Shown here in pieces: positions 21,963 through 46,229 of a stretch of 64,000 bases of DNA (its first letter is position 1; every line of letters starts with the position of its first letter). The DNA comes from Bosea sp. AS-1 (lineage in GTDB: Bacteria; Pseudomonadota; Alphaproteobacteria; Rhizobiales; Beijerinckiaceae): the NCBI RefSeq assembly GCF_002220095.1, contig NZ_CP022372.1, positions 1,584,501 through 1,648,500 on the forward strand. The letters are read 5' to 3'. Under the pieces are notes generated by a model. It worked only from the letters and a program-made list of their open reading frames with translations. It made no database searches and was not told where the DNA came from. The translations under genes were made by a program, and so were the position numbers.

Positions 21963-22197
21963 CGAAAAACCTGTCAGATCAGGCCACTGGGACCGGGAGG
22001 CGTCGGAGGGTCAGCCAAGCACACGATATAGGCAATCATGTTCCGCCATACCACCAACGTCTCGCGGTGAGCGCGGTTCCGCGATCAAATCCATGTCATG
22101 ACGAACGTTCGGGCATGGTCCAACACCGCGCCGGTATAGGTCGAGCGCCTTGAATGTGAGATGAATGCCCAAGCGGACCCAAGCTCCGGAGGCGCCG

Positions 22198-22773
22198 ATG
22201 GACGGCCGGACGGCAGGAATCAGCACGGTCAATCCCGTCTATGGCGGTGTCGCCCGGACCTTTCACTGGGTGACGGTGCTGGCCGTCTTCACGATGCTGC
22301 CGCTCGGCCTCGCCATGACTTATCGCGGCAAGACGCTGAACATCTTCGACGGCACGACCGACGCGCTCTACAGCGCCCACAAGCTCATCGGCTTCCTGCT
22401 GCTGTGGTTGACGGCTGGGCGGCTGATCTATCGGCTCCTGCACGGTGCACCGCCTGACGAGCCGTCCCTCACCTGGTGGCAGAAGGCGGGCTCGCATCTC
22501 GTTCACTGGCTACTCTACGGGTTGTTGCTGGTCGTCCCGCTGCTCGGCTGGCTCGGCGTCTCGCTGTTCCCGGCGCGGACGGTATTCGGCCTGTTCGACC
22601 TGCCGGCCTTGGCGGCGCCCGACCAGGAGGCTGCGAACCGGGTGCTTGGTATCCATGGTAAGCTGGCGCTGACGCTCGGAGCGCTGGCAGCCCTGCATAT
22701 TCTGGCGGCGCTCTACCATCGTTTCATCCGGCACGATGGTGTGCTGCGCCGGATGTGGCCGGGGCGCGGCTAG
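22198..22773 (+). CDS. Cytochrome b561-family membrane protein
   Basis: A 191-residue four-helix membrane protein of the bacterial b561/Ni-Fe-hydrogenase cytochrome b type. Candidate haem histidines lie in 'VARTFHWVTVLAVF', 'SAHKLIGFLLL', 'HLVHWLLYGLLL' and 'ALHILAALYHRFI', with a late 'GIHGKLALTLGALAALH'. It likely passes electrons to or from quinone or periplasmic partners. The ATG at 22198 is preferred over 22165 because GGAGG lies about six bases upstream. It sits between ribA and the methyltransferase gene on the opposite strand, converging on the latter by six bases. Confidence 0.85.
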   Translation: MDGRTAGISTVNPVYGGVARTFHWVTVLAVFTMLPLGLAMTYRGKTLNIFDGTTDALYSAHKLIGFLLLWLTAGRLIYRLLHGAPPDEPSLTWWQKAGSHLVHWLLYGLLLVVPLLGWLGVSLFPARTVFGLFDLPALAAPDQEAANRVLGIHGKLALTLGALAALHILAALYHRFIRHDGVLRRMWPGRG

Positions 22774-22779
22774 AATAGC

Positions 22780-23619
22780 TCAGACTGGCCTGGCCCATAG
22801 ATCTTGGTGTCCGATCAGCACCGACGTCGCGCTGCGGCGGGCTTCCATCCAGCCGGCAATGGCGGCGGCGTCGAGCTGTCCGGTCTCGCGGACCGCCTCG
22901 GCGATACCCTCGGCAAGGGCAGCGCGGAGGGCCTCGCGGCTGCCGTCGAGCAGCCAGGCGCTATCCGCCGTCGAGATGGCGAGACCCGACTTCCTGAAAG
23001 CCTCCGCCATAATTTCGCAGGCTTCTGGCCCGGCCGCTGGACCAAAGCCCTTGTCCGTATGCTGGTGATGCTTGAAGGCAGCGAGCATGCGGGCATCGGC
23101 GCGATGGGCCGGTTTCCATTTCTCGCGCCCGTCATAGGTCAGCACGGCATAGAGCGGCAGATTCTGGCTCGCGAGCGCGGCGACGAAGCGTTCGATCCAG
23201 GCCTTCGAGGCGAGATCGAAGAAGGCTGCCGCAGTAACAAGGTCCGGCTGCCAGCCAAGGACCCATTCCAGATCCTTGTTCAGGTCGACCTGACGCGTGT
23301 CGACGGTGATGGTCTTGTCGTCCTTGGTCAGGACGAGCTCCTCGCCCTGTTCGCGGGCTTCGTCTGCCCAGGCGAGCAGGCGCTCGCGCGCGAGCGCCAA
23401 CAGATCGCCATCGTGATCGACAAGGGTCCAATGCTGCCGCTCGGGCAGGGAGGCATAGCTGCCGCGCAGATTGGAACCAGCACCGCTGCCGAGATCGAGC
23501 ACCGAGAGCGAGGGCTTTCCGGCGAAATAGGCGCCGACCGCCGCGAGCACCTGCGGATTGCGCGCCGCATGGTCGGCCGGCTCGCGCAATGCAAGCCATT
23601 CCGAAGAGAACCCAGCCAT
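22780..23619 (-). CDS. Class I SAM-dependent methyltransferase of the pterin-like cassette
   Basis: A 279-residue protein with the SAM-binding motif I 'LSVLDLGSGAGSNLRG' near residues 38-53, an acidic end of strand 2 (WTLVDHDGDLLALARERL), and 'WQPDLVTAAAFFDL' as a motif-IV-like segment. The acceptor substrate is unknown. The ATG at 23619 has AGGTGGGG upstream and shares one base with the stop codon of the glycosyltransferase gene (TGATG), so translation is coupled. It is the last gene of the four-gene cassette. Confidence 0.83.
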   Translation of the reverse strand: MAGFSSEWLALREPADHAARNPQVLAAVGAYFAGKPSLSVLDLGSGAGSNLRGSYASLPERQHWTLVDHDGDLLALARERLLAWADEAREQGEELVLTKDDKTITVDTRQVDLNKDLEWVLGWQPDLVTAAAFFDLASKAWIERFVAALASQNLPLYAVLTYDGREKWKPAHRADARMLAAFKHHQHTDKGFGPAAGPEACEIMAEAFRKSGLAISTADSAWLLDGSREALRAALAEGIAEAVRETGQLDAAAIAGWMEARRSATSVLIGHQDLWARPV

Positions 23620-24704
23620 CACCCCACCTTTCGGCCATCGCCGCCGAGGCATGCCGCTGCGACGATCCGAGCCGTATCCCGCCACTGCGGCAACCGCGAT
23701 GCCGCCGTCCAGGCCGCCTCGCCGCGCCGGTGGCGTTCAGCCGGCGCATCAATCAGTCTTGCGAGGGCCTTGGCAAGTGCCGCAGCGTCGCCAGGCGGCA
23801 CTTTGAGGGCGGCATCGTCCGGCAAGGCGTCGGCGCCTGTGCCGCTCGAGGTGCAGACGATCGGCAGGCCACGGGCGAGTGCTTCCGTCAGGACCATGCC
23901 GTAGCCCTCATAGAGCGAGGGCATGACGAAGAGATCGGATTTGTCATAGAGGTCCGCCAGCCTTTCGGAGTCCACGGCTCCAACAAGCAAGATGCGGTCC
24001 GCAAGCCCGGCCCGGTGGATCTGGGCTCGCAGATCGGCGACGGTCTGGGGCGAATAGTCCGGCGAGCCTGCGAGAGTCAGGAACCAGCGCCGGTCGGCGA
24101 GGGTGGCGAGTGCCGAGACAAGGACATCGTAGCCTTTACGCGGGATGATCGAGCCGACCGCCAGTAGCTGTAGTGCGGTATCACCACCGCTTCCTGCCGC
24201 GCGCGGCGCCCGATCGGTTCCGGGCACCGCGACAGCGATCCTCGCGCGCGGGACGGCATAGTCCGCAACGAGTGTGCCGCGTGTGGCTGGGCTGGTCACG
24301 GCGACGGCGCGGGCATGGCCGAGTGCGAGCCTTTCGCTCTGACGCAGGGCGGCGGCCCTGTCGGAGGGGAGGCCGGTTTCCAGCGCCAGCGGATGATGGA
24401 CCAGGGCGACGAGGCGCCGCTGGAATCGCATCGCCAGCGCTTCGGGGAAGGCACCCAAGGCGAGGCCATCGATCAGCAGCACTTCGTCCGGCGCGGTCTG
24501 AGCCAGAAGCGCTTCGGTCGCCTCCAGATCATTGGCTGTCGGGAAGGGAAAGGCGCCGGGCAAGGCGATGTGGCGCGCAGCGATGCCAGCCTCGCGCCAT
24601 TCGCGCAGCAGGCGCCGGTCGTAGCCATAGCCACCTGTCGGTGCGTCGATATCGCCCGGGATGGCGAAGACGATCCGCCGCTGGGGCTCGCCTTGCCCGC
24701 TCAC
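23619..24704 (-). CDS. GT4-family glycosyltransferase of the pterin-like cassette
   Basis: A 361-residue GT-B glycosyltransferase. The N-terminal Rossmann domain begins 'RIVFAIPGDIDAPTGGYGYDRR', whose glycine-rich loop is usual in GT4. The C-terminal domain has 'LLAVGSIIPRKGYDVLVSAL' and the donor-binding E-x7-E motif 'PSLYEGYGMVLTEALARGLP'. It probably uses a nucleotide-sugar donor in the cytoplasm. Its start overlaps the PTPS-like gene by four bases and its stop overlaps the methyltransferase start by one, so all three are translated as a unit. Unlike typical surface-glycan GT4 genes it has no polysaccharide genes around it. Confidence 0.85.
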   Translation of the reverse strand: MSGQGEPQRRIVFAIPGDIDAPTGGYGYDRRLLREWREAGIAARHIALPGAFPFPTANDLEATEALLAQTAPDEVLLIDGLALGAFPEALAMRFQRRLVALVHHPLALETGLPSDRAAALRQSERLALGHARAVAVTSPATRGTLVADYAVPRARIAVAVPGTDRAPRAAGSGGDTALQLLAVGSIIPRKGYDVLVSALATLADRRWFLTLAGSPDYSPQTVADLRAQIHRAGLADRILLVGAVDSERLADLYDKSDLFVMPSLYEGYGMVLTEALARGLPIVCTSSGTGADALPDDAALKVPPGDAAALAKALARLIDAPAERHRRGEAAWTAASRLPQWRDTARIVAAACLGGDGRKVG

Positions 24705-25102
24705 GCGAGCGCGCCCTCGTAGCTGGCGCGGGCGAGATCGGTCTCGTGGAGCGTGACGCGGATGCGGGCGAGGCCTCTGCCGTCGGCACCGAGCGCGTCT
24801 GATTTCGCGGCCGCCGCCATGGCATCGAAGATGTATTTGCAGAGAAACTCGGTCGTGGTGAGCACGCCGGCGAATTGCGGCAGGATGTCGAGGTTCTGAT
24901 ATTTCAGCGGCTTCAGGGTCTCGGCGAGGACATCGAGCGCCGCGCCGATATCGACCACGACGTTCTGCCGGTTCAGCGCCTCGCGGAAGAAGGCGACATC
25001 GACCACGAAGGTCGCGCCGTGCATGTTCTGCGCCGGACCGAAGAAGGGATCGGGCAGGGAGTGGCCGATCATGATGCGGTCGCGGACTTCGACGGAAAAC
25101 AT
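24701..25102 (-). CDS. Divergent 6-pyruvoyl-tetrahydropterin-synthase-like protein
   Basis: A 133-residue protein with the PTPS/QueD T-fold: 'IGHSLPD' near residue 14, 'NMHGATFVVDV' near 28, 'VVVDIGAALDVLAETLKPLKYQNL' in the middle, and 'RVTLHETDLARASYEG' at the end. In standard enzymes the second block reads C-x3-HGHxY. Here the catalytic cysteine position is Ala24 and the second zinc histidine is Ala30; only H14 and H28 remain. It is therefore unlikely to be an ordinary QueD or PTPS. The start has AGGAG six bases upstream. It is the second gene of the cassette, 52 bases after the dehydrogenase. Confidence 0.8.
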   Translation of the reverse strand: MFSVEVRDRIMIGHSLPDPFFGPAQNMHGATFVVDVAFFREALNRQNVVVDIGAALDVLAETLKPLKYQNLDILPQFAGVLTTTEFLCKYIFDAMAAAAKSDALGADGRGLARIRVTLHETDLARASYEGALA

Positions 25103-25154
25103 GGAGGCTCCTGTTATCGAGGCGGCGAGTCTTGGTCGTCTCGCGGCGGCGCCG

Positions 25155-26162
25155 TCAATAGCGCAGCACGGCTGTGAGACCGGTCCAGCTGGAAGCCAGC
25201 ACGGCCGGGACCTGTGTCGGCGCGTCCTGGAACGCGATTTCCTGCGTGATCAGCGCGTCGAGCCGGTCATCTGCGAGCAGCGCCATCGCCGCTCGGGCGC
25301 GGCGCGCATGGTCCCAGCGGGCGCGGCGTGACGGAGACACGGTTCCCACCTGTGAGGAGACGAGCTGGAGACGCCGTGCATGGAAGGCTCCGCCGAGCGG
25401 AGCAGGCACCGTCCCCTCGCCATACCAGCTCAATTCGACGATCCGCGCCTCGAACCCGGCGCTGGCGATCGCCATGGCGAGCCCGGCGGCGCTGGCGCTG
25501 GCGTGAAAGATGATGTCGGCGTCCCGAGGAGCTGCCTCGGGCGGGGCGAAGCGCAGGCCGAGCGCCTCGGCCACGGCCTGCCGGGACGGCTCGACATCGA
25601 CCAGCGTGACCTCGGCGCCGGGCAGGCGGGCGGCGAGCCAACTGGTGAGTAGGCCGAGAATGCCTCCACCGACGATCACAATCCTGTCACCGGGACCGGA
25701 GCCGGCATCCCAATGTGCATTGAGAGCGGTCTCCATATTGGCGGCGAGGATGGCGCGGCGCGGGGGGATATTGTCGGGAATCGGCACCAGCCAGGCGCGC
25801 GGCGCGACGAAGCATTCCTGATGCGGGTGGAGGCAGAAGACGTGACTGCCAAGGAGGTCGCGTGGACCGGAATCGACGCGACCGACGGCGCAATAGCCGT
25901 ATTTGACGGGGAAAGGGAACGAGCCCTCCTGAAAGGGCGCGCGCATGCGCTCGTATTCGGACTCCGGCACCCGCCCCTCGAAGACGAGCTTTTCGGTGCC
26001 GCGGCTGATGCCGCTCCAGAGAGTAGTGACGAGGCAGTCATCGGGCCCAACAGGCGGCAGGGCGACTGCATTCAGCCGGCATTCACGGGGCGAGGCATAC
26101 CAAAGGGCCAAGGGTTTTGCCCTTGCGTCAGCCGTGGTGGGGGTCTTTAGCTCCCGCGCCAT
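25155..26162 (-). CDS. MDR-family (zinc-type alcohol dehydrogenase-like) oxidoreductase
   Basis: A 335-residue medium-chain dehydrogenase/reductase. The N-terminal GroES-like domain has 'LWSGISRGTEKLVFEGRVP' where zinc enzymes carry a cysteine before the GxxxGTE-like turn, so the catalytic zinc ligand seems lost, as in BchC-like members. The NAD(P)-binding loop is 'IVIVGGGILGLLTSWLAARL' (about residues 180-200), and 'VTLVDVEPSR' ends in an aspartate that favours NAD. The ATG at 26162 is chosen; the frame runs far upstream as a shadow of opgH. First gene of the cassette, diverging from opgH with only 42 bases between starts. Confidence 0.83.
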   Translation of the reverse strand: MARELKTPTTADARAKPLALWYASPRECRLNAVALPPVGPDDCLVTTLWSGISRGTEKLVFEGRVPESEYERMRAPFQEGSFPFPVKYGYCAVGRVDSGPRDLLGSHVFCLHPHQECFVAPRAWLVPIPDNIPPRRAILAANMETALNAHWDAGSGPGDRIVIVGGGILGLLTSWLAARLPGAEVTLVDVEPSRQAVAEALGLRFAPPEAAPRDADIIFHASASAAGLAMAIASAGFEARIVELSWYGEGTVPAPLGGAFHARRLQLVSSQVGTVSPSRRARWDHARRARAAMALLADDRLDALITQEIAFQDAPTQVPAVLASSWTGLTAVLRY

Positions 26163-26204: not shown

Positions 26205-28061
26205 ATGACCGATACCGTCACGAACCAGCGCCCCGCTCCGACCACGTTCCAGCGGGTGGCGCAAGATGTCGAGCCTCTCGGCCTGACGCCGGCAGGGCTC
26301 CAATCGTCCGCGGCACTGCGAAACCGGCGGCTTCTCATGCTCGCGCTCAATCTCGGCACCCTGGCGGCGCTTCTTGCGGGGCTCGCCCATCTGCTCGGCC
26401 TCGGCGGTTGGAGCCCGGCGGATGTCGTCATCTTCGTCGCCTTCCTTTTCGCTGCACCGTGGACCGTTCTCGGCTTCTGGAACGCGTTCATCGGTCTCTG
26501 GCTGCTTCACGGCCGGCATGACGGCCTGGCCGAGGTCGCACCCTTCGCGGCGGCAGGCGACAGGCCCACTCCGCTGATGCTGCGGACGGCGGTGCTGATG
26601 ACGTTGCGCAACGAGGATCCCGGCCGGGCTTTCAGCCGGCTGAAGGCGGTCAAGCACAGCCTCGACGCGACGGGCGAGGGGGTCTGGTTCGATTATTTCG
26701 TGCTGTCCGATACGAGCGACCCGGCCGTGGCGGCGGCCGAGGAGGCGCTGGCTGCAGCCTGGGCGGCCGAGATCGGCGAGCCGGCGCGCCTGACCTATCG
26801 GCGGCGCGCGGGCAATGCCGGGTTCAAGGCCGGCAATATCCGCGATTTCTGCGAGCACTGGGGCGATCGCTACGAGCTGATGCTGCCGCTCGACGCCGAC
26901 AGCCTTATGGCGGGGGAGACCGTGATCTCGCTCGCCCGGATGATGCAGGCTCATCCGAAGCTGGGCATCCTGCAATCGCTGGTGGTTGGCATGCCCAGCC
27001 GTTCGGCCTTCGCCCGCATCTTCCAGTTCGGCATGCGCCACGGCATGCGGCCTTACACCATGGGCGCGGCCTGGTGGGCGGGTGATTGCGGACCGTTCTG
27101 GGGGCACAACGCCCTGGTGCGGATCGCTCCCTTCCGCGACCATTGCCATCTGCCGGTGCTCCCGGGCGGGCCGCCGCTCGGCGGAGCAGTGATGAGTCAT
27201 GATCAGGTCGAGGCCGTACTGATGCGCCGGGCCGGTTACGAGGTGCGTGTGCTGCCGGTCGAGGGCGGAAGCTGGGAGGAAAATCCGCCGACCATGCTCG
27301 ATTTCGCCAAGCGCGACCTGCGCTGGTGCCTCGGCAATCTGCAGTACCTGAAGCTCCTCGACCTGCCTGCGTTGAAGCCGACGAGCCGCTACCAGCTCAT
27401 CTGGGCGATCCTGATGTTCCTGGGGCTGCCGGCCTGGACGCTGATGATCGCGTTGCTGCCGCTGAAGGTCTTCGAAGATCGTGCGATGCCAGGCTATCCG
27501 ACGGGTTTCGCGGCAGGATTTTATGCGCTGTTCCTTTTGATGCACCTCGCGCCGAAGCTCGCCGGGTTCGTCGACACGCTGCTGACCCAGGGCGGCGTCG
27601 CACGCTATGGTGGCGGCATCCGCTTTCTGGCATCGGCTGCGATCGAGACCGTGTTCGGCTTCCTGCAGAGCGCCGTCACCAGCTTGCGGACGACGCTGTT
27701 CATGGTCGGGCTCGCCTTCGGCCGGGCGCGGATCGGCTGGAATGGGCAGGCGCGTGATGCCCATGCTTTGTCCTTCGCCACCGCGTGGGCCGGGCTCTGG
27801 CCGCATCTTCTGTTCGGTGTCTATCTGTTCGGCACGCTCGCCTGGCTGTCACCGGTCGTGCTGATCTGGTCGCTGCCGCTGACCGTCGGCTATCTGCTGG
27901 CTGTGCCCTTCGCGATGCTGACGGCTCTCCCGGCCGCAGGAACCTGGCTCGCTCGTCACGGTCTCTGCGACATTCCGGAGGATGTTGCTGCGCCGCCGGT
28001 GCTGGCGGCGATCGGTGCGGCCGGGACGGAAGTGCAGCTTTCCCTCGCCATCGCGCAGTGA
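26205..28061 (+). CDS. opgH: Osmoregulated periplasmic glucan glucosyltransferase OpgH (MdoH)
   Basis: A 618-residue inner-membrane GT2 enzyme that polymerises glucose from UDP-glucose into the backbone of periplasmic glucans. Two membrane helices (about residues 45-65 and 75-100) are followed by a cytoplasmic catalytic domain. That domain contains 'VLMTLRNEDPGRAFSRLKAV', 'LMLPLDADSLMAGE' (DxD) and 'RDLRWCLGNLQYLKLL', the Q/RxxRW-type site. Several C-terminal helices complete it. It is shorter than E. coli OpgH (847) at both ends. No opgG accompanies it. The Shine-Dalgarno match is poor. Confidence 0.9.
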   Translation: MTDTVTNQRPAPTTFQRVAQDVEPLGLTPAGLQSSAALRNRRLLMLALNLGTLAALLAGLAHLLGLGGWSPADVVIFVAFLFAAPWTVLGFWNAFIGLWLLHGRHDGLAEVAPFAAAGDRPTPLMLRTAVLMTLRNEDPGRAFSRLKAVKHSLDATGEGVWFDYFVLSDTSDPAVAAAEEALAAAWAAEIGEPARLTYRRRAGNAGFKAGNIRDFCEHWGDRYELMLPLDADSLMAGETVISLARMMQAHPKLGILQSLVVGMPSRSAFARIFQFGMRHGMRPYTMGAAWWAGDCGPFWGHNALVRIAPFRDHCHLPVLPGGPPLGGAVMSHDQVEAVLMRRAGYEVRVLPVEGGSWEENPPTMLDFAKRDLRWCLGNLQYLKLLDLPALKPTSRYQLIWAILMFLGLPAWTLMIALLPLKVFEDRAMPGYPTGFAAGFYALFLLMHLAPKLAGFVDTLLTQGGVARYGGGIRFLASAAIETVFGFLQSAVTSLRTTLFMVGLAFGRARIGWNGQARDAHALSFATAWAGLWPHLLFGVYLFGTLAWLSPVVLIWSLPLTVGYLLAVPFAMLTALPAAGTWLARHGLCDIPEDVAAPPVLAAIGAAGTEVQLSLAIAQ

Positions 28062-28190
28062 GCGTTTCCGCCGGCTCGGCCGCGCCGGGCCGGAACGCAT
28101 CGCCATTGTGTCGCGTTGGGTCATGACGCGGCCGGCTCAGCGCGCTAGCCTGTGCCGATCGTTCTCGACCCAGCCTACCAGGGGCCATTC

Positions 28191-28970
28191 ATGCCGCGCT
28201 TTGCCGCCAACCTCTCGATGATGTTCACCGAGTGGGATTTCCTCGACCGCTTCAAGGCGGCGTCCGAAGCGGGATTCGAGGCCGTCGAATTCCTGTTCCC
28301 TTATGAGCATGCGCCGGAACAGGTCGGGCTGGCCCTGACCGGCGGCGAGTTGGAGCAGGCATTGTTCAACCTGCCGCCGGGCAATTGGACGGGGGGTGAG
28401 CGCGGCATGGCGGCGCTGGCTGGCAGGGAGGATGAATTCAAGGCCTCCGTCGATACCGCGCTGGCCTATGTCCATGAGACCGGCGTCAAGCGCCTGCACA
28501 TGATGGCGGGGCTGGCCGACCCCGACGACCCGGTGGCGCAGAAGACCTACCGTACTTCCATCGCCTATGCCGCGGATCGGCTCGGCGAGCACGGCATCGA
28601 CCTCCTGCTCGAGCCGATCAACGGCAAGGACATGCCGGGCTATTTCCTCAACGATTTCGACCGGGCCGCCGCCTATGTGCGCGAATCCGGGCGGCCGAAC
28701 GTCAAGCTGCAGTTCGACATGTATCACTGCGAGCTGATCCACGGCGATGTCTCCGGCAAGCTCAAGGCGCTCTATCCCCTCGTCGGCCACGTCCAGATCG
28801 CCCGCGCCAACGGCCGGCATGAGCCGGACGCTTCCGGCCCCGATTATCCGCGACTCTTCGCCGAACTCGACGCGCTCGGCTATGGCGGCTTCGTCGGCTG
28901 TGAATACAGGCCGGCGCACGGCACGCTGGAAGGGCTCGGCTGGTTTGCACCCTGGCGGAAGCCACTCTGA
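28191..28970 (+). CDS. hyi: Hydroxypyruvate isomerase (TIM-barrel, Hyi-like)
   Basis: A 259-residue xylose-isomerase-like TIM barrel. It starts 'MPRFAANLSMMFTEWDFLDRF' and has the metal-ligand blocks 'LLLEPINGKDMPGYFLNDF', 'VKLQFDMYHCELIHGD' and 'GFVGCEYRPAHGTLEGLGW'. Hyi interconverts hydroxypyruvate and tartronate semialdehyde in glyoxylate metabolism. The ATG at 28191, with AGGGG upstream, gives the family's usual length; a GTG at 28152 would add 13 residues. Its stop shares a base with the glucokinase start. Confidence 0.88.
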   Translation: MPRFAANLSMMFTEWDFLDRFKAASEAGFEAVEFLFPYEHAPEQVGLALTGGELEQALFNLPPGNWTGGERGMAALAGREDEFKASVDTALAYVHETGVKRLHMMAGLADPDDPVAQKTYRTSIAYAADRLGEHGIDLLLEPINGKDMPGYFLNDFDRAAAYVRESGRPNVKLQFDMYHCELIHGDVSGKLKALYPLVGHVQIARANGRHEPDASGPDYPRLFAELDALGYGGFVGCEYRPAHGTLEGLGWFAPWRKPL

Positions 28971-29974
28971 TGCGACCGCCTTCCATCAGCTATCCTGTTC
29001 TGCTTGCCGATATAGGCGGCACGAATTGCCGTCTCTCGATGGTGGCGGATCCGGAGAGCCCGCACCACTCCGTGGCGCGGATCGGGACCGGGAGCTTCGC
29101 GACGCCGGAAGCTGCCTTCGAGAGTGTCATCGCCGAACTGCCGGAGCGGCCGCGCTCGGCGATCCTCGCCGTGGCCGGGCCGCTCGATGGGCGCAGGGCG
29201 CAGCTGACCAATGCGAGCTGGGATTTCGACGGGCCACGAATCGCCGAAGCCCTGAAGTTCAACCAAGGGCTCCTGGTCAATGATTTCGAGGCTTTGGCGG
29301 CGTCTCTCGCCGTACTGAACCCGACCGATGTCGAGAGCCTGGTCGAGGGCGAGCCAGAGCCGGAAGGGGTGAAGCTCGTGCTCGGCCCAGGAACGGGGTT
29401 CGGCGCCTCGGCCCTGCTGACGCGGGGCGAGCGTGGTTTCCTGATTCCGACCGAGGCGGGGCATATCGGCATCGGCCCGGAGGATCCGGCCGAGCATAGG
29501 ATCTGGCCGGCGCTGACCGCGGGGCTGCCGCGCCTCACCGTCGAACACCTGCTCAGCGGTGACGGGCTGGTGCGCCTTCATCGCGCAGTGGCCACGACCT
29601 CCGGCATGGCGGAGGCCGATGTCAGCGCTGCCGATATCAGCCGGCTCGCACTCGACGGAAATCCCGCCGCGCTGATGACGGTGGTCTGCTTCTGGCGCCT
29701 GCTGGCGCGTGTCGCCGGCGATCTCGCGCTCGCCTTCAAGGCGACGGGCGGCGTCTTCATCGCAGGCGGCATCGCGCCGAAGCTGTTGCCGCTGGCGGAT
29801 CGCCCGACCGTCAAGGCGGTCTTTGCCGGCAAGCCGCCGATGGAGGATCTGGCGGCGCGGTTCGCCCTGCACATCATCACGGCGCAGGATGCTGCCGAGC
29901 AGGGGCTCGCCGCGATCGCGGCCAATCTGCCGCGCTTTGGTCTCGACGATCCGAAGCGGTTGTGGTTTGGCTGA
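28970..29974 (+). CDS. glk: Glucokinase (Glk family)
   Basis: A 334-residue ROK/hexokinase-fold glucokinase that phosphorylates glucose with ATP. Visible motifs are the phosphate-1 loop 'LLADIGGTNCRLSMV', the sugar-binding 'VNDFEALAAS', 'LGPGTGFGAS', 'IPTEAGHIGIGPED' and a late adenosine motif 'GVFIAGGIAPKLLP'. The length suits the proteobacterial Glk family. It is coupled to hyi by a TGATG overlap. Confidence 0.92.
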   Translation: MRPPSISYPVLLADIGGTNCRLSMVADPESPHHSVARIGTGSFATPEAAFESVIAELPERPRSAILAVAGPLDGRRAQLTNASWDFDGPRIAEALKFNQGLLVNDFEALAASLAVLNPTDVESLVEGEPEPEGVKLVLGPGTGFGASALLTRGERGFLIPTEAGHIGIGPEDPAEHRIWPALTAGLPRLTVEHLLSGDGLVRLHRAVATTSGMAEADVSAADISRLALDGNPAALMTVVCFWRLLARVAGDLALAFKATGGVFIAGGIAPKLLPLADRPTVKAVFAGKPPMEDLAARFALHIITAQDAAEQGLAAIAANLPRFGLDDPKRLWFG

Positions 29975-41213: not shown

Positions 41214-44042
41214 CTACTGACCCAGCCTTTCCAGCAGGGCCGGGACATGGACCTGGTCGGCCTTGTAGTTGCCGGTCAGCGCATACATCACGAGATTGAT
41301 GCCTCCGCGCAGCGCCAGTTCACGCTGGCGTGGATCGGAGCCCGAGAGCGGCACCAGGCCTTCGCCGCGCCGGTCGATCGCCCAGGCTGCGGCGAGGTCG
41401 TTCGAGGTGATGACGATGGGCGAGACATTGTCGCCGGCCCGCGCCGGGCGGTGTCCTTCATTGTCCGCGGGCGGCAGGGTCTCGACCCAGGTGGTGCCGG
41501 TGTCGTAGCGGCCGATGAGTCCGTCGAGGATATAGAAGGTCTTGGTCAGCACGTGGTCGGCGGGCAGCGGCTCGAGCTCCGGAATGTCGAGCGTCTGCAG
41601 CATGCGCTTGAGCTGGTCGCCCTCGGGGGTGGTGCCGCCGCCGGGCCGGGCGCTCATCGCGTCGCGGGTGTCGAAGATCACGAGGCCGCCGCCCTTCATA
41701 TAGGCTTCGAGCTTGCGCAGCGTCTCCGCGGAGGGGATGGGACGGCCGGCGACGATCGGCCAGTAGAGCACCGGGAAGAAGGCGAGTTCGTCGCGGTCGA
41801 CATTGACGCCGATGGCATCGCCCGGCTCCAGCGCGGTGCGGGCGGCGAGCACGGTGTTGAGGCCAGTGAGCCCGGCCTTAGACATGTCGTCGACGGCCTT
41901 GTCGCCGGTGACGACATAGGCGAGCCGGGTCATCGCGCCGTTGGCGATGAGCTCGCGCGGGATCGGCGGGAGTTTTTCGGGCTGCGTGGCCTGGGGAGCC
42001 GGGGCAGGCTGCGCCCGAACCGGATTGGGCGCGAGGCTCGCGACCAGGGCGAGCGCCAGCAGTATCGCGGCCGGCGCGGCGGCGCGGCGGGCGCGGCCGA
42101 GCCCCAGGCGGCCGCCGAGCCACAGCGTCGCGAGCGTGTCCAGAATCAGCAGCAGCAAGGCGAGCACGAGCAGGAGCGGCCGGATGTCGCGCGCGATCGG
42201 CTCGTCGATCGGCAGGATCGGTGCTCCGAGGCTGGCGAGGTCGAGCGCGGCGATCTTGTCATTCGGAGCGAGCGCATTCACGGCAAAGGAGCCTTCGGTG
42301 GGACCGTAGAGGCCGGGCGGATGCAGCAGCGTCGCGCGGCCCGCGAAGTTGCGGGCGACGGGCTGGCTCGTCGCCGGCGGGCTGCGGAACTGGCCGAGAC
42401 CGTCGAGCACGCGGGTCGGCGAGAGGGTTTCGACCCTGACCTCGTCGCCTTGCGCCTCGGCAGCCGTGCCTGCGCCAGCGAGGTTGACGACCTTGCGCAG
42501 CATCTCGACGAAGAGGCCGGAGAGCGGCAGGTTCGACCAGGTGGTGTCGGCGGTGACATGGAACATCGCGATCAGCCCGTCGCCGCGGCGCTCGCCGGTG
42601 ACGACCGGCGTGCCGTCCTCCAGCGCCGCCCAGGTCTTGCGCGAGAGGTTGGGCTCCGGCTCGGCCAGGATCTGGCGGGTGACTCGGACGTCGTCGCCGA
42701 TGGTCAGGCCGAAGAAGGGGCTCTCGCGGGTGAAGGCGGCGAGCTTGCGCGGCGTGTCCCAGGAGAGGCCGCCGCCGAGTGTACGGCCGCCGCGGCGCAA
42801 TTTGACCGGGGTGAGCTCGTCGGCGGTGGCGGCGAGGCGCGGGCCGGCGAAGCGCAAGAGCACGCCGCCGCGTTGCACGAAATCCGAAATCTTCGTCGCG
42901 GTCTCGCGGTCGAGCGTGCCGATATCGGCGAGGATCAGCACGGAAAGGTTCTGTGCCAGCAATTCGCCGATTGGATCGTTGGAGCCCTGGCGCGGCTCGC
43001 GGACCTCGGCGAAAGGCTGGAGCGCGCGCGAGACGTAGTAGGTCGGCGAGAGCAGCGGCTGGGCGGTGTCGGCGGTGGTACCCGAAACGACGCCGACGCG
43101 ACGGCGCTTCGCACTCTCGTCGAGCAGTGCGACGGACCCGGCACTGCGCATCCCGGCGATCTCCAGGCGCGAGACGGCATTGCGCACCTCGATCGGAAGG
43201 GTCAGGCGCGCGCTGGTCTCCAGGGCCGAGCCTTCGAAGATGAAGGGCGCTTCGCCGAGCGGCAGTCCCTTGAGATCGAGCGCGCGAACCTGTCCGGTCG
43301 CTGGGGCGGCGGCGTTCGGGCGCAAGACCTTCACGGTGAGCGCACCAGCCTGATTCTCGGGCGCGGCCAGGGCGAGCTGGGTCGCGGGCCCGGCATGGAT
43401 GGCCAGGCGCCGTTCGCCGGAGATCTTCAGCCGGGAGAGGAAGGGCGTTTCATCGCCGACGGCGAGCCCGTCCGAGACCCAGACGATTTCGGTTTCCGGA
43501 GAATTCCGCAGCAGGTTTTCGATGCGCGGCAGATGGGCGGCACGGTCCGGCGCATGCGGCTCGAGCGTCAGCGCCCGCAACCGCTCCAACGCGGTCCGCG
43601 GGTCGAGAAGCGAGATCTCGGCCGGGTTCTCGGCCAGTCCGACCACGGCGACGGTGCGCCCCTCGCGGGTCGCAGCAGCGATGCGGGACTCGGCGACGGA
43701 GATCCGGTCCGCCCAGTCGGTCGCTGCGCCGAAACCGTTGTCGACGAGGAGCAGCACGGGCCCGCGGGTCGGCCCGGCGTCGCGGGGCGGGTTCCAGATC
43801 GGTCCCGCGACGGCGAGGATGGCGAGCGCCGCAACGACCATGCGGATGGCGAGCAACCACCAGGGCGTATGGGCCGGCATCTCCCGCTTCGGGATCAGAT
43901 CGGCCATGATCTTCAGTGGCGGGAAATCGATCCGGCGCGGGCGCGGCGGCGTCACGCGCAGGATCAGCCAGAGAGCCGGCAGCAGCGCCAGCGCGGCCAG
44001 CGCCAGCGGGGCGGAGAAGGTGAGGGGCAGGGCGCCGAACAT
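41214..44042 (-). CDS. BatA-like membrane protein with DUF4159 domain
   Basis: A 942-residue protein. It begins with the aerotolerance-regulator/BatA N-terminal motif (FSAPLALAALALLPALWLILRVTPPRPRR). A degenerate vWA domain follows, in which the MIDAS motif is lost (LLLVDNGFGAATDW). The middle carries an amidotransferase-like fold. A membrane helix pair (about residues 650-700) precedes a C-terminal DUF4159 domain (ELIANGAMTRLAYVVTGD to 'GGINLVMYALTGNYKADQVH'). It lies between the DUF58 gene and the vWA gene, 12 and 2 bases away. The reverse strand also stays open over most of this gene, which is a GC artefact. Confidence 0.88.
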   Translation of the reverse strand: MFGALPLTFSAPLALAALALLPALWLILRVTPPRPRRIDFPPLKIMADLIPKREMPAHTPWWLLAIRMVVAALAILAVAGPIWNPPRDAGPTRGPVLLLVDNGFGAATDWADRISVAESRIAAATREGRTVAVVGLAENPAEISLLDPRTALERLRALTLEPHAPDRAAHLPRIENLLRNSPETEIVWVSDGLAVGDETPFLSRLKISGERRLAIHAGPATQLALAAPENQAGALTVKVLRPNAAAPATGQVRALDLKGLPLGEAPFIFEGSALETSARLTLPIEVRNAVSRLEIAGMRSAGSVALLDESAKRRRVGVVSGTTADTAQPLLSPTYYVSRALQPFAEVREPRQGSNDPIGELLAQNLSVLILADIGTLDRETATKISDFVQRGGVLLRFAGPRLAATADELTPVKLRRGGRTLGGGLSWDTPRKLAAFTRESPFFGLTIGDDVRVTRQILAEPEPNLSRKTWAALEDGTPVVTGERRGDGLIAMFHVTADTTWSNLPLSGLFVEMLRKVVNLAGAGTAAEAQGDEVRVETLSPTRVLDGLGQFRSPPATSQPVARNFAGRATLLHPPGLYGPTEGSFAVNALAPNDKIAALDLASLGAPILPIDEPIARDIRPLLLVLALLLLILDTLATLWLGGRLGLGRARRAAAPAAILLALALVASLAPNPVRAQPAPAPQATQPEKLPPIPRELIANGAMTRLAYVVTGDKAVDDMSKAGLTGLNTVLAARTALEPGDAIGVNVDRDELAFFPVLYWPIVAGRPIPSAETLRKLEAYMKGGGLVIFDTRDAMSARPGGGTTPEGDQLKRMLQTLDIPELEPLPADHVLTKTFYILDGLIGRYDTGTTWVETLPPADNEGHRPARAGDNVSPIVITSNDLAAAWAIDRRGEGLVPLSGSDPRQRELALRGGINLVMYALTGNYKADQVHVPALLERLGQ

Positions 44043-44054
44043 TCCGCCTCCTCC

Positions 44055-44972
44055 CTAGAAGCCCGAAGCGCCGCGCGAGGCGGCGACGAGGCTGGCAACG
44101 CGCAGCACGCCTTCGCTGGCGGGACGGTCGGTGCGGTGGAGTGTCAAGGTCCAGCCGGCCTTGCGGCAGGCTTCGCGGATCGCCTCGCGATGGGCGGCGA
44201 GGCGCTGGCGATACTCCTCGCCCCAGGAGCCTGCGTCGCCGACACGCAGGCTGAGGCCGTCCTCCAGGTCGAAGAGCTCGGCCTGACCGGTGAAGGGGAA
44301 GGTCTCCTCGATCGGGTCGGCGATCAGCAGGACATGTCCGCGCGCGCCGCTCGATGACATGGTGGCGATGCGCTTCGACAGCGAGTCGGACGGGGAGAGG
44401 CCGTCGGTGACGATGATCGCGTCGGCGAGACGTGGCAGCGGCGCGGCGGGCGGCAGGTCATCCTCGGCGCTCTTGCGGTCGGCGACGATAGCCTGTGCCA
44501 GCAATTCGATGATGTTGCGCGAGGCGAGCGGCCGCGTCAGCCCGAGATGGCCCACACGCTCGCCGCCCTCGACCATCGTCTCGGCCAGGGCGAAACCGGC
44601 CACAAGAGCACGGTCGATCTTGGAGGCCGAAGCGAGAGAGGAGGCGAAGCCCATCGAGGCGGAACGGTCGATCCAGAGCCAGACGGTGTGGGAAGCTTCC
44701 CATTCGCGCTCGCGCACGAAGAGATGGCCGTCGCGGGCGGAGCGGCGCCAGTCGATGCGCGAGGCGGATTCGCCGGCGACCAGCGGCCGGTATTGCCAGA
44801 AGGTCTCGCCCGGCCCGGCGCGGCGGCGACCATGGATGCCGTGGACGCTTGCCGAGACGCGGCGGGCTTCGAGGATGAGACGAGGTAGGCGCGCGGCGAG
44901 GTCGAGCGAAGCGGTGAGGACGGGCCTCGCCGGCTGCCGCTCGGTCTGACTCAGGACGCGCGTACGCAACAT
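44055..44972 (-). CDS. DUF58 (vWA-like) protein
   Basis: A 305-residue soluble protein with the DUF58 core '[45 protein letters not shown]' (shortened here to its start and the R-x-I-D-W-R-R-S-A block) and a MIDAS-like '[13 protein letters not shown]'. DUF58 proteins act with MoxR ATPases in protein maturation complexes such as those for methanol dehydrogenase or CO dehydrogenase. It sits four bases downstream of moxR. No nearby client gene is evident. Confidence 0.9.
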
Positions 44973-44976
44973 CGGC

Positions 44977-45999
44977 TTATCCCAGCCGTTCCACGAGGCG
45001 GCCGATCACGCCCTCGATGGTCTCGCCATCGGCGCGGGCGGCGAAGGTCAGCGCGACGCGGTGCTTGAGCACGGGTGCGGCCAGTGCGGCGATGTCGTCG
45101 ACCGAAGGGGCGAGCCTGCCTTCGACCAGCGCTCGGGCACGGGCGGCGAGCGTCAGCGCCTGGCTGGCGCGAGGGCCGGGGCCCCAGGCGAGCTTGTCGG
45201 TGATCGCCGCGTCGCCTTCGCCCGGGCGGGCGGAGCGGACGAGGTCGAGAATGGCATCGACCACCGCGTCGCCGACCGGCAGGCGGCGCACGAGCCGCTG
45301 GATCGACATCAACGTCTCGGCCGTCATCGCCTGCGAGGGCTTGTATTCGGCGGCGCCGGTGGTTTCGAGCAGGATACGCCGCTCGGCCTCGCGATCTGGG
45401 TAATCGACGTCGATCTCGAGCAGGAAGCGGTCGAGCTGTGCTTCCGGCAGCGGATAGGTGCCTTCCTGCTCGATCGGGTTCTGGGTCGCGAGAACATGGA
45501 AGGGGGCGGGCAGGTCGTAACGCTCGCCGGCGACGGTGACGTGGTGCTCCTGCATCGCCTGCAGCAGGGCGGACTGGGTGCGGGGGCTGGCGCGGTTGAT
45601 CTCGTCCGCCATCAGGAGCTGGGCGAAGACCGGGCCCTTGATGAAGCGGAAATGGCGCTTGCCGTCGCTCGATTCGTCGAGAACCTCCGAGCCGAGGATG
45701 TCGGAGGGCATCAGGTCGGGCGTGAACTGGACGCGTCGTGCCGAGAGACCGAGCACGGTGCCCATCGCCTCGACGAGCTTGGTCTTGGCGAGGCCGGGCA
45801 CGCCGACCAGCAGGCCGTGGCCGCCGGCCAGAAGCGTGATCAGCGAGAGATCGACGACCTTCTGCTGGCCGAAGATGACCTGGCCGATCTCCTTGCGGGC
45901 CGCGCCGATGGCGCCGAGCGCCGCCTCGGCCGCCTCGACGACGCCGCTGTCGAGGTCGATCGGGGTGTTGCTCTCACTCGCACGGGCTTGCGCCGCCAT
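44977..45999 (-). CDS. MoxR-family AAA+ ATPase
   Basis: A 340-residue AAA+ ATPase. Walker A reads '[18 protein letters not shown]' (about residues 60-77), Walker B '[25 protein letters not shown]', sensor '[25 protein letters not shown]', and the C-terminal lid ends '[12 protein letters not shown]'. MoxR proteins are chaperones that work with DUF58/vWA partners, exactly those encoded downstream. The ATG at 45999 has AAGGAG about seven bases upstream; longer readings upstream lack support. First gene of the operon, diverging from the DUF1285 operon. Confidence 0.93.
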
Positions 46000-46229
46000 G
46001 TCGCTCTCCTTCACCCTGGCAATCCTGCGCCGCCGGCCGCCCCGCATCCTTGCATAGCAGGCCGCGGACCTCTCGCCACGTTCCATGGTTGAATGTGGAC
46101 GGGCGGTTTTGCAGGCTCAAGCGCCGATTGCGGCGGTACACATAAACTCGGCTTCACGATTATGTGGAGTTCAAGGCAGAAACGCGGTGCAACCAATATG
46201 CCGCAGCCGAAAAAGGAACCGATTCTGGG

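Follow-up and report, generated by a model that had tools for sequence, protein, structure and literature searches.

What does a pterin-binding-type protein do when its gene lies among those of a dehydrogenase, a glycosyltransferase and a methyltransferase? The question is raised by a locus of the alphaproteobacterium Bosea sp. AS-1, analyzed here within a stretch of 64,000 nucleotides (the window; contig NZ_CP022372.1, positions 1,584,501 to 1,648,500), in which four minus-strand open frames follow one another with spacings of +52, -4 and -1 bases (Table 1) and encode an MDR-superfamily dehydrogenase, a PTPS-like T-fold protein, a GT4 glycosyltransferase and a predicted class I methyltransferase. 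A first-pass annotation had described this one-strand arrangement, proposed a GTP-derived, glycosylated and methylated pterin-like product and taken the cassette for an undescribed system. The frames and their spacing were confirmed, as were the family calls, those of the dehydrogenase and the methyltransferase being settled by predicted fold. We find that the cassette is real and conserved, and consider it probable that it forms the core of a conserved pathway, centered on the PTPS-IV subfamily, which leads from GTP through the riboflavin-type branch to a glycosylated, methylated pterin-like product.

Conservation of the cassette

Two collections of relatives were compared. The named loci are the best 80 of 589 confirmed loci, found with two peptide patterns and leaning to Bosea and other Hyphomicrobiales; the nearest named homologues of the window's PTPS-like protein are from Bosea. 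The 37 drawn loci (29 from a draw of the class and 8 from a draw of the phylum, with the window's own genome excluded) were found with a profile in genomes drawn irrespective of neighborhood, and up to 19.5 kb of DNA was taken around each match; one of them (L176) is the same DNA as a named locus (L077), and two genome pairs each fall within one genus. Neighbor models were built from the named loci, the plasmid loci and the window, and genes of the named loci were counted at a threshold of at least 100 bits. Since each open frame was given its best model only, the presences are lower bounds (the dehydrogenase is unscored in L019 and L025), and several loci end at contig ends.

The drawn loci contain the dehydrogenase in 36 cases, GT4 in 35 and the methyltransferase in 31, with a CDP-alcohol phosphatidyltransferase (13), an OpgH-type glucosyltransferase (10) and a cytochrome b561 (9) as further partners. 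Among the named loci the methyltransferase is found in 77, GT4 in 72, the dehydrogenase in 71, OpgH in 58 and b561 in 42, while rarer partners are FkbM (31), an unnamed secreted family (29), YfhO (17), an inositol-phosphatase (12) and the CDP-alcohol phosphatidyltransferase (8). The exact order dehydrogenase-PTPS-GT4-methyltransferase is kept in 29 drawn and 47 named loci, and even the gene overlaps recur, those of PTPS with GT4 and of GT4 with the methyltransferase being 4 bases each in Methylosinus and Agrobacterium. Unsupervised clustering of the frames from the 80 named loci, 8 plasmid loci and the window yielded PTPS, GT4, methyltransferase, OpgH, dehydrogenase, RibD, b561 and RibA as the top families, the labels being assigned after the clustering. 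By comparison, 20 control stretches, taken from other parts of 20 of the 37 drawn genomes and scored with 15 models, yielded only two matches, both of them weak, to GT4 and within a single stretch. Both the counts and the controls thus place the conservation of the four-gene cassette beyond chance.

With the own genome counted, a PTPS-IV match was obtained at 1e-20 in 30 of 240 genomes of an even draw of the window's class, or about one in eight, and at 1e-10 in 14 of 150 genomes of the phylum draw, three of the latter being weak. The dehydrogenase and GT4 genes lie beside PTPS in all 10 strong phylum matches outside the own genome, versus none of the three weak PTPS matches, whose 3.4-kb loci contain no cassette gene. 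The cassette is present on replicons of alphaproteobacteria, Thiodictyon, Streptomyces and Microbacterium, and PTPS-IV extends to actinobacteria (L004, L006, L071), gammaproteobacteria (L005, L078) and betaproteobacteria (L081, L089). Followed across genomes, the neighbors proved to be conserved across genera and phyla, and of the two outcomes that the annotation had named as refuting its idea, non-conserved neighbors and a standard QueD, neither was seen.

The PTPS-IV protein is distinct from QueD

The PTPS-like protein matches the PTPS family (PF01242, 7e-20, Pfam) and contains the motif FGPAQ at residues 21-25, which is the PTPS-IV signature as given in PMC5445326. Its closest solved relative is SCO6650 (3d7j, residues 1-132, E 3e-38). 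The positions of QueD Cys27 and His33, the catalytic cysteine and the third zinc histidine, are both occupied by alanine in 138 of 138 homologues, giving AxxxHGA in place of the QueD motif CxxxHGH in these and in the window protein; some genomes enter this count twice, three weak PTPS matches (41-45 bits) are excluded from it, and the alanine for Cys27 is partly selected in the named loci because one of the two search patterns contains FGPAQ. At the position of QueD His71 all 138 have Tyr, Met, Phe or Leu, whereas the positions of His16 and His31 are retained throughout, as is the glutamate at the position of QueD Glu110 (Glu120 in the window protein), which we take to be the anchor of the pterin ring. 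The QueD model TIGR03367 gives 29 bits, below its cut-off of 89.25.

Database records nevertheless call PTPS-IV "6-carboxytetrahydropterin synthase", the queuosine enzyme whose catalytic residues PTPS-IV has lost. The protein could be imagined to serve as the genome's QueD beside unrelated neighbors, as it is the sole PF01242 protein found in the own genome (G000, 5.84 Mb searched), a genome search with E. coli QueD, run without a positive control, was empty, and the PTPS gene has a QueC gene some 46 kb away. Against this stand the altered motif, the subthreshold QueD score and the conserved cassette neighbors. Moreover, the sole QueE model used (TIGR04508) is unmatched in the own genome and gave matches in 9 of 14 control genomes (1 over the cut-off). 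The QueC gene (G000:C3:1655765-1656439; L214 7223-7951) adjoins a weak match to a queuosine-precursor transporter, and the pair looks like deazaguanine salvage. De novo queuosine synthesis in this genome is therefore unlikely, and we regard the identity of the protein with QueD as extremely improbable. Judged by its residues, the protein belongs to the orphan subfamily PTPS-IV and would be a pterin-binding-type T-fold protein devoid of QueD chemistry.

RibA, RibD and the probable GTP branch

The first-pass annotation had placed a GTP cyclohydrolase II gene just beyond the cassette on the same strand; the identification holds (NF006456, 497 bits against a cut-off of 464), with the correction that the cytochrome b561 gene on the opposite strand separates the cassette from ribA. 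Aligned to E. coli RibA, the window protein retains Tyr at the Tyr105 position and the zinc-site Cys. RibA recurs in 36 of the 80 named loci and in 12 of the 37 drawn ones (11 at 100 bits or above), and co-occurrence with ribA, which the annotation had singled out for checking, is thus partial; a RibD-type protein recurs more often, in 46 and 29 loci respectively. A second long-type RibA, 81% identical to that of the window, was seen elsewhere in the own genome (G000:C3:40174-40650; L011).

Matches of the clustered RibD proteins to the models are confined to the reductase half. A Pfam check of 36 of them (every second frame of up to 420 residues from 81 whole frames in long loci), with the own genome's housekeeping RibD as control row, found RibD_C in 37 of 37 rows, and the deaminase domain in the control row but in none of the 36. 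Likewise, a query with the deaminase half matched none of 91 clustered RibD frames, of which 82 lie in long loci, one of these touching the locus end, and the remainder in short loci that may truncate the gene.

The residue at the E. coli Tyr105 position is Tyr in 47 of 51 loci with RibA, Met in two, Leu in one (L080) and cut off in one (L090). The two Met-type proteins belong to the Streptomyces cassette loci L004 and L202, both of which have an adjoining creatininase-family gene; a creatininase query had no match in the 20 control stretches. Work in S. coelicolor reportedly shows that Met-type RibA stops at a formyl intermediate. A creatininase-family formamidase that removes the formyl group from this intermediate has been published (PMC9478397), and Tyr-type RibA on the one hand, and Met-type RibA with the formamidase on the other, would give the same diamino-pyrimidine. 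A stricter rule, by which a creatininase gene accompanies Met-type RibA and is missing beside the Tyr-type, was tried and failed, as creatininase relatives adjoin Tyr-type RibA at L149, L167 and L178. The own genome has 7 creatininase matches.

The recurrence of RibA and RibD would place the start of the pathway in the riboflavin branch. A RibD that lacks the deaminase would leave the 2-amino group in place, which argues for a pterin-like rather than a flavin-like product, and the conserved PTPS-IV glutamate, which would read a 2-amino-pyrimidinone, is a second, independent sign in the same direction.

Three other products of this branch or its vicinity have to be weighed. RibA and RibD are common to riboflavin synthesis, and the pathway might make a modified riboflavin or lumazine, for instance a secreted glycosylated flavin, with the PTPS-like protein handling flavin precursors; the window genome would then need its ordinary RibD, and housekeeping RibD deaminates before it reduces. 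The clustered RibD proteins, though, have no deaminase domain, and the own-genome lumazine synthase frames, which themselves lie elsewhere, match only one of 126 cassette loci (L163, the single locus with riboflavin genes nearby); for riboflavin synthase the search used one own-genome frame only. We judge a flavin-type product to be rather unlikely. FO too derives from the RibA/RibD product, which would suit a role in coenzyme F420 or its FO part. CofH is, however, unmatched in the own genome, with a model that gave matches in 11 of 14 control genomes (3 over the cut-off), and we know of no use of GT4, of this methyltransferase or of OpgH in F420 synthesis. Even with the unpublished remark linking PTPS-IV to F420 in PMC5041015, such a role has hardly any probability in our estimate. 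Lastly, other bacteria are known to have pterin glycosides and a pteridine glycosyltransferase (PMC5683033, PMC13259868), and a biopterin-type glycoside such as cyanopterin or limipterin could be formed by way of GTP cyclohydrolase I. The recurrent cyclohydrolase is of type II (PF00925), the QueD/PTPS catalytic residues are lost, and neither GTP cyclohydrolase I nor sepiapterin reductase was recognized among the labeled recurrent neighbors, no direct search for them having been made; we consider this route very unlikely.

Dehydrogenase, glycosyltransferase and methyltransferase

The dehydrogenase has a weak Pfam match and is weakly BchC-like by sequence, with 60.1 bits in the BchC model TIGR01202, far below the cut-off of 291.25; it does not contain the GHE zinc motif. 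Its predicted structure (predicted local distance difference test, pLDDT, 91) resembles polyol and alcohol dehydrogenases, and its assignment to the MDR superfamily, weak by sequence, is clear by predicted fold. GT4 is identified by its Glycos_transf_1 match (3e-30, Pfam). The methyltransferase has no match in Pfam, NCBIfam or, by sequence, the PDB, and owes its classification to a predicted structure (pLDDT 97) that resembles those of class I methyltransferases, 3mgg (template modeling score, TM, 0.62) among them; the top three structure matches (TM 0.60-0.62, 12-13% identity) do not allow the substrate to be read from them.

Partners with a possible envelope role

The annotation had stated that no polysaccharide genes lie nearby, which the window contradicts: an OpgH/MdoH-type membrane glucosyltransferase gene (NF003963, 941.9 bits against a cut-off of 884) is divergent from the dehydrogenase gene, with 42 bases between the two starts. 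No OpgG gene was found adjacent to it, MdoG being found at three other places in the genome, which carries OpgGH elsewhere; among the 126 cassette loci OpgG occurs in only three (L044, L178, L181). OpgH and the CDP-alcohol phosphatidyltransferase are rarely found together (2 of 80 named and 1 of 37 drawn loci), from which we infer that they are alternative routes of the product to or across the membrane. Clusters of betaproteobacterial type (L069, L081, L089, L096) additionally contain a glucan ABC exporter, scoring 862-1316 bits with the L089 protein as query, which itself gives 832 bits in PRK13657 against 733; with the same query, 5 of the 20 control stretches showed weak matches, 7 in all (59-90 bits). 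Other clusters add YceI, LPG-synthase-TM, FkbM or YfhO-type proteins, and a YceI query had no match in the 20 control stretches. The product may accordingly be exported or envelope-linked.

Two further families were seen in these neighborhoods. A secreted-looking family of about 320 residues (L086 5317-6303; L018 5035-5994) occurs near FkbM and OpgH in 29 of the 80 named loci; it has no Pfam or NCBIfam match, and no match near the window's cassette. A family called "sulfatase" in one record (L073 5310-6959; L003 3205-4791) recurs near the CDP-alcohol phosphatidyltransferase; no Pfam family matches it (E up to 1 for L073).

A proposed pathway

Based on these observations we propose that RibA opens GTP to 2,5-diamino-6-ribosylamino-pyrimidinone phosphate, a conversion that in Streptomyces would be carried out in two steps by Met-type RibA and the creatininase-family formamidase. 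In most of the drawn genomes the deaminase-less RibD would then reduce the ribosyl to a ribityl chain, with the 2-amino group retained. This 2-amino-pyrimidinone would be the substrate of PTPS-IV, whose probable role is to close or tailor the second ring and so to give an N8-ribityl-pterin-like compound, whereupon the dehydrogenase would alter a hydroxyl group, GT4 would add a sugar and the methyltransferase a methyl. The OpgH-type glucosyltransferase might hand the product to the envelope, together with the glucan ABC exporter in some betaproteobacteria, and the CDP-alcohol phosphatidyltransferase module might do so in other lineages. Gene content, gene order, conservation, residue losses and the missing deaminase are direct observations, from which the substrates, the order of reactions, the ring closure, the acceptors of sugar and methyl and the export are deduced. 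The GTP-derived, glycosylated and methylated pterin-like product of the annotation accordingly remains the best reading, deduced as it is from the genes and now on firmer ground than the annotation could have been aware of, with an envelope side that the annotation had missed.

Several observations weigh against this proposal. A RibD of the clustered type is missing from the own genome, where the best match scores 80 bits versus mostly 200-360 for the clustered proteins; the window has no match to the RibD model, and none of the 8 named Bosea loci contains a clustered-type RibD, so that the reductase of the window genome would have to be the housekeeping RibD. Three of these Bosea loci (L021, L022, L024) also have neither RibA nor b561 within 10 kb, and at the 100-bit threshold RibA is in reach in no more than 11 drawn loci. 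Creatininase relatives, besides the three loci where they adjoin Tyr-type RibA, occur without RibA at L148, L151 and L157, and L163 holds lumazine synthase with an adjoining riboflavin synthase-type frame within 10 kb. In 13 of the 80 named loci, largely of Rhodobacterales, PTPS is followed by a gene other than GT4; in Rhodobacterales GT4 has another place in the cluster or was not found. In the drawn locus L172 the dehydrogenase gene is on the other strand, and neither GT4 nor the methyltransferase was found. Finally, two Streptomyces plasmids (L116 9001-9426; L117 9001-9399) carry PTPS-IV without the cassette.

The PTPS-IV genes of these two plasmids have MEKHLA-domain, cupin and MBL-fold genes nearby, which gives the subfamily another, unexplained context. 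Frames split in two were noted for OpgH and GT4 in L061 and for RibA, the methyltransferase and FkbM in L064, pointing to decay or assembly error.

A further conjecture, which we hold to be doubtful, concerns the function of the product: a sugar- and methyl-decorated 2-amino N8-ribityl-pterin, joined to or exported with an envelope glucan (by OpgH) or a phospholipid (by the CDP-alcohol phosphatidyltransferase), might be a periplasmic redox-active pterin fed by cytochrome b561. If true, it would represent a class of membrane- or glycan-linked pterin cofactors of which, to our knowledge, no example exists, and if the envelope link alone holds, pterin would join the exported or surface-bound bacterial cofactors. 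The defined partner set, a short operon with RibA and RibD, offers a direct way to the product.

Genes around the cassette

Table 1. Genes of the cassette and its surroundings, with positions in the window (aa, amino acids; SAM, S-adenosylmethionine)
Feature	Position	Strand	Basis
MDR-superfamily dehydrogenase, P0001, 335 aa, first cassette gene	25155..26162	-	weak Pfam match, predicted fold
PTPS-IV T-fold protein, P0002, 133 aa, FGPAQ	24701..25102	-	PF01242, 3d7j match
GT4 glycosyltransferase, P0003, 361 aa, GTG start, 4-base overlap with PTPS-IV gene	23619..24704	-	Glycos_transf_1
Class I SAM methyltransferase (predicted), P0004, 279 aa, 1-base overlap with GT4 gene	22780..23619	-	predicted fold
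Cytochrome b561 (PF01292), convergent with cassette, recurrent neighbor	22165..22773	+	Pfam
GTP cyclohydrolase II RibA, P0005, 375 aa	20835..21962	-	NF006456
OpgH/MdoH-type membrane glucosyltransferase	26205..28061	+	NF003963

Beyond OpgH, at 28152-29974, the window contains a xylose-isomerase-like TIM barrel protein and a putative ROK/glucokinase-like gene. In named Bosea loci the surroundings of OpgH include FkbM and the unnamed secreted family, both of which appear to be missing from the window. Farther along (41214-46086) lies a BatA / DUF4159 protein gene with a MoxR-type ATPase gene close by on the same strand.

Comparison with known systems

The view of the cassette as an undescribed system is half correct. 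A neighborhood network over 561 PTPS-IV sequences, in print since 2017 (PMC5445326), already held PF00925 and PF01872 without assigning a product, so that the system is not wholly undescribed: PTPS-IV with RibA and RibD was in print as an orphan, and no description of the complete gene set or of its product turned up in the literature searched. What the annotation observed was partly confirmed and holds except for the overlooked OpgH gene; its interpretation is partly supported. As a member of PTPS-IV within COG0720, the window protein likewise has FGPAQ and lies near PF00925, and PF01872 recurs in its relatives, the window itself having no RibD model match. The passages on PTPS-IV in PMC5445326 and PMC5041015 name no MDR, GT4, methyltransferase, OpgH or CDP-alcohol phosphatidyltransferase partners; the former gives PF00925 as "FolE2", the Pfam name being GTP cyclohydrolase II, and the unpublished F420 link of the latter does not fit this genome.

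SCO6650 of Streptomyces coelicolor, the closest solved relative, was deposited as uncharacterized. The paper on its structure is said to describe a protein without zinc, triad or PTPS activity. With the synthesis of periplasmic glucans by OpgGH the cassette shares the OpgH-type gene and, in some relatives, the glucan ABC exporter, and it differs in the rarity of OpgG. With the riboflavin enzymes RibA, RibD and BrbF (PMC9478397) the cassette loci share RibA, a RibD-type reductase and sometimes a creatininase-family protein; unlike the riboflavin pathway, they combine a RibD free of the deaminase with lumazine synthase near a single locus and with tailoring enzymes for which flavin synthesis has no need.

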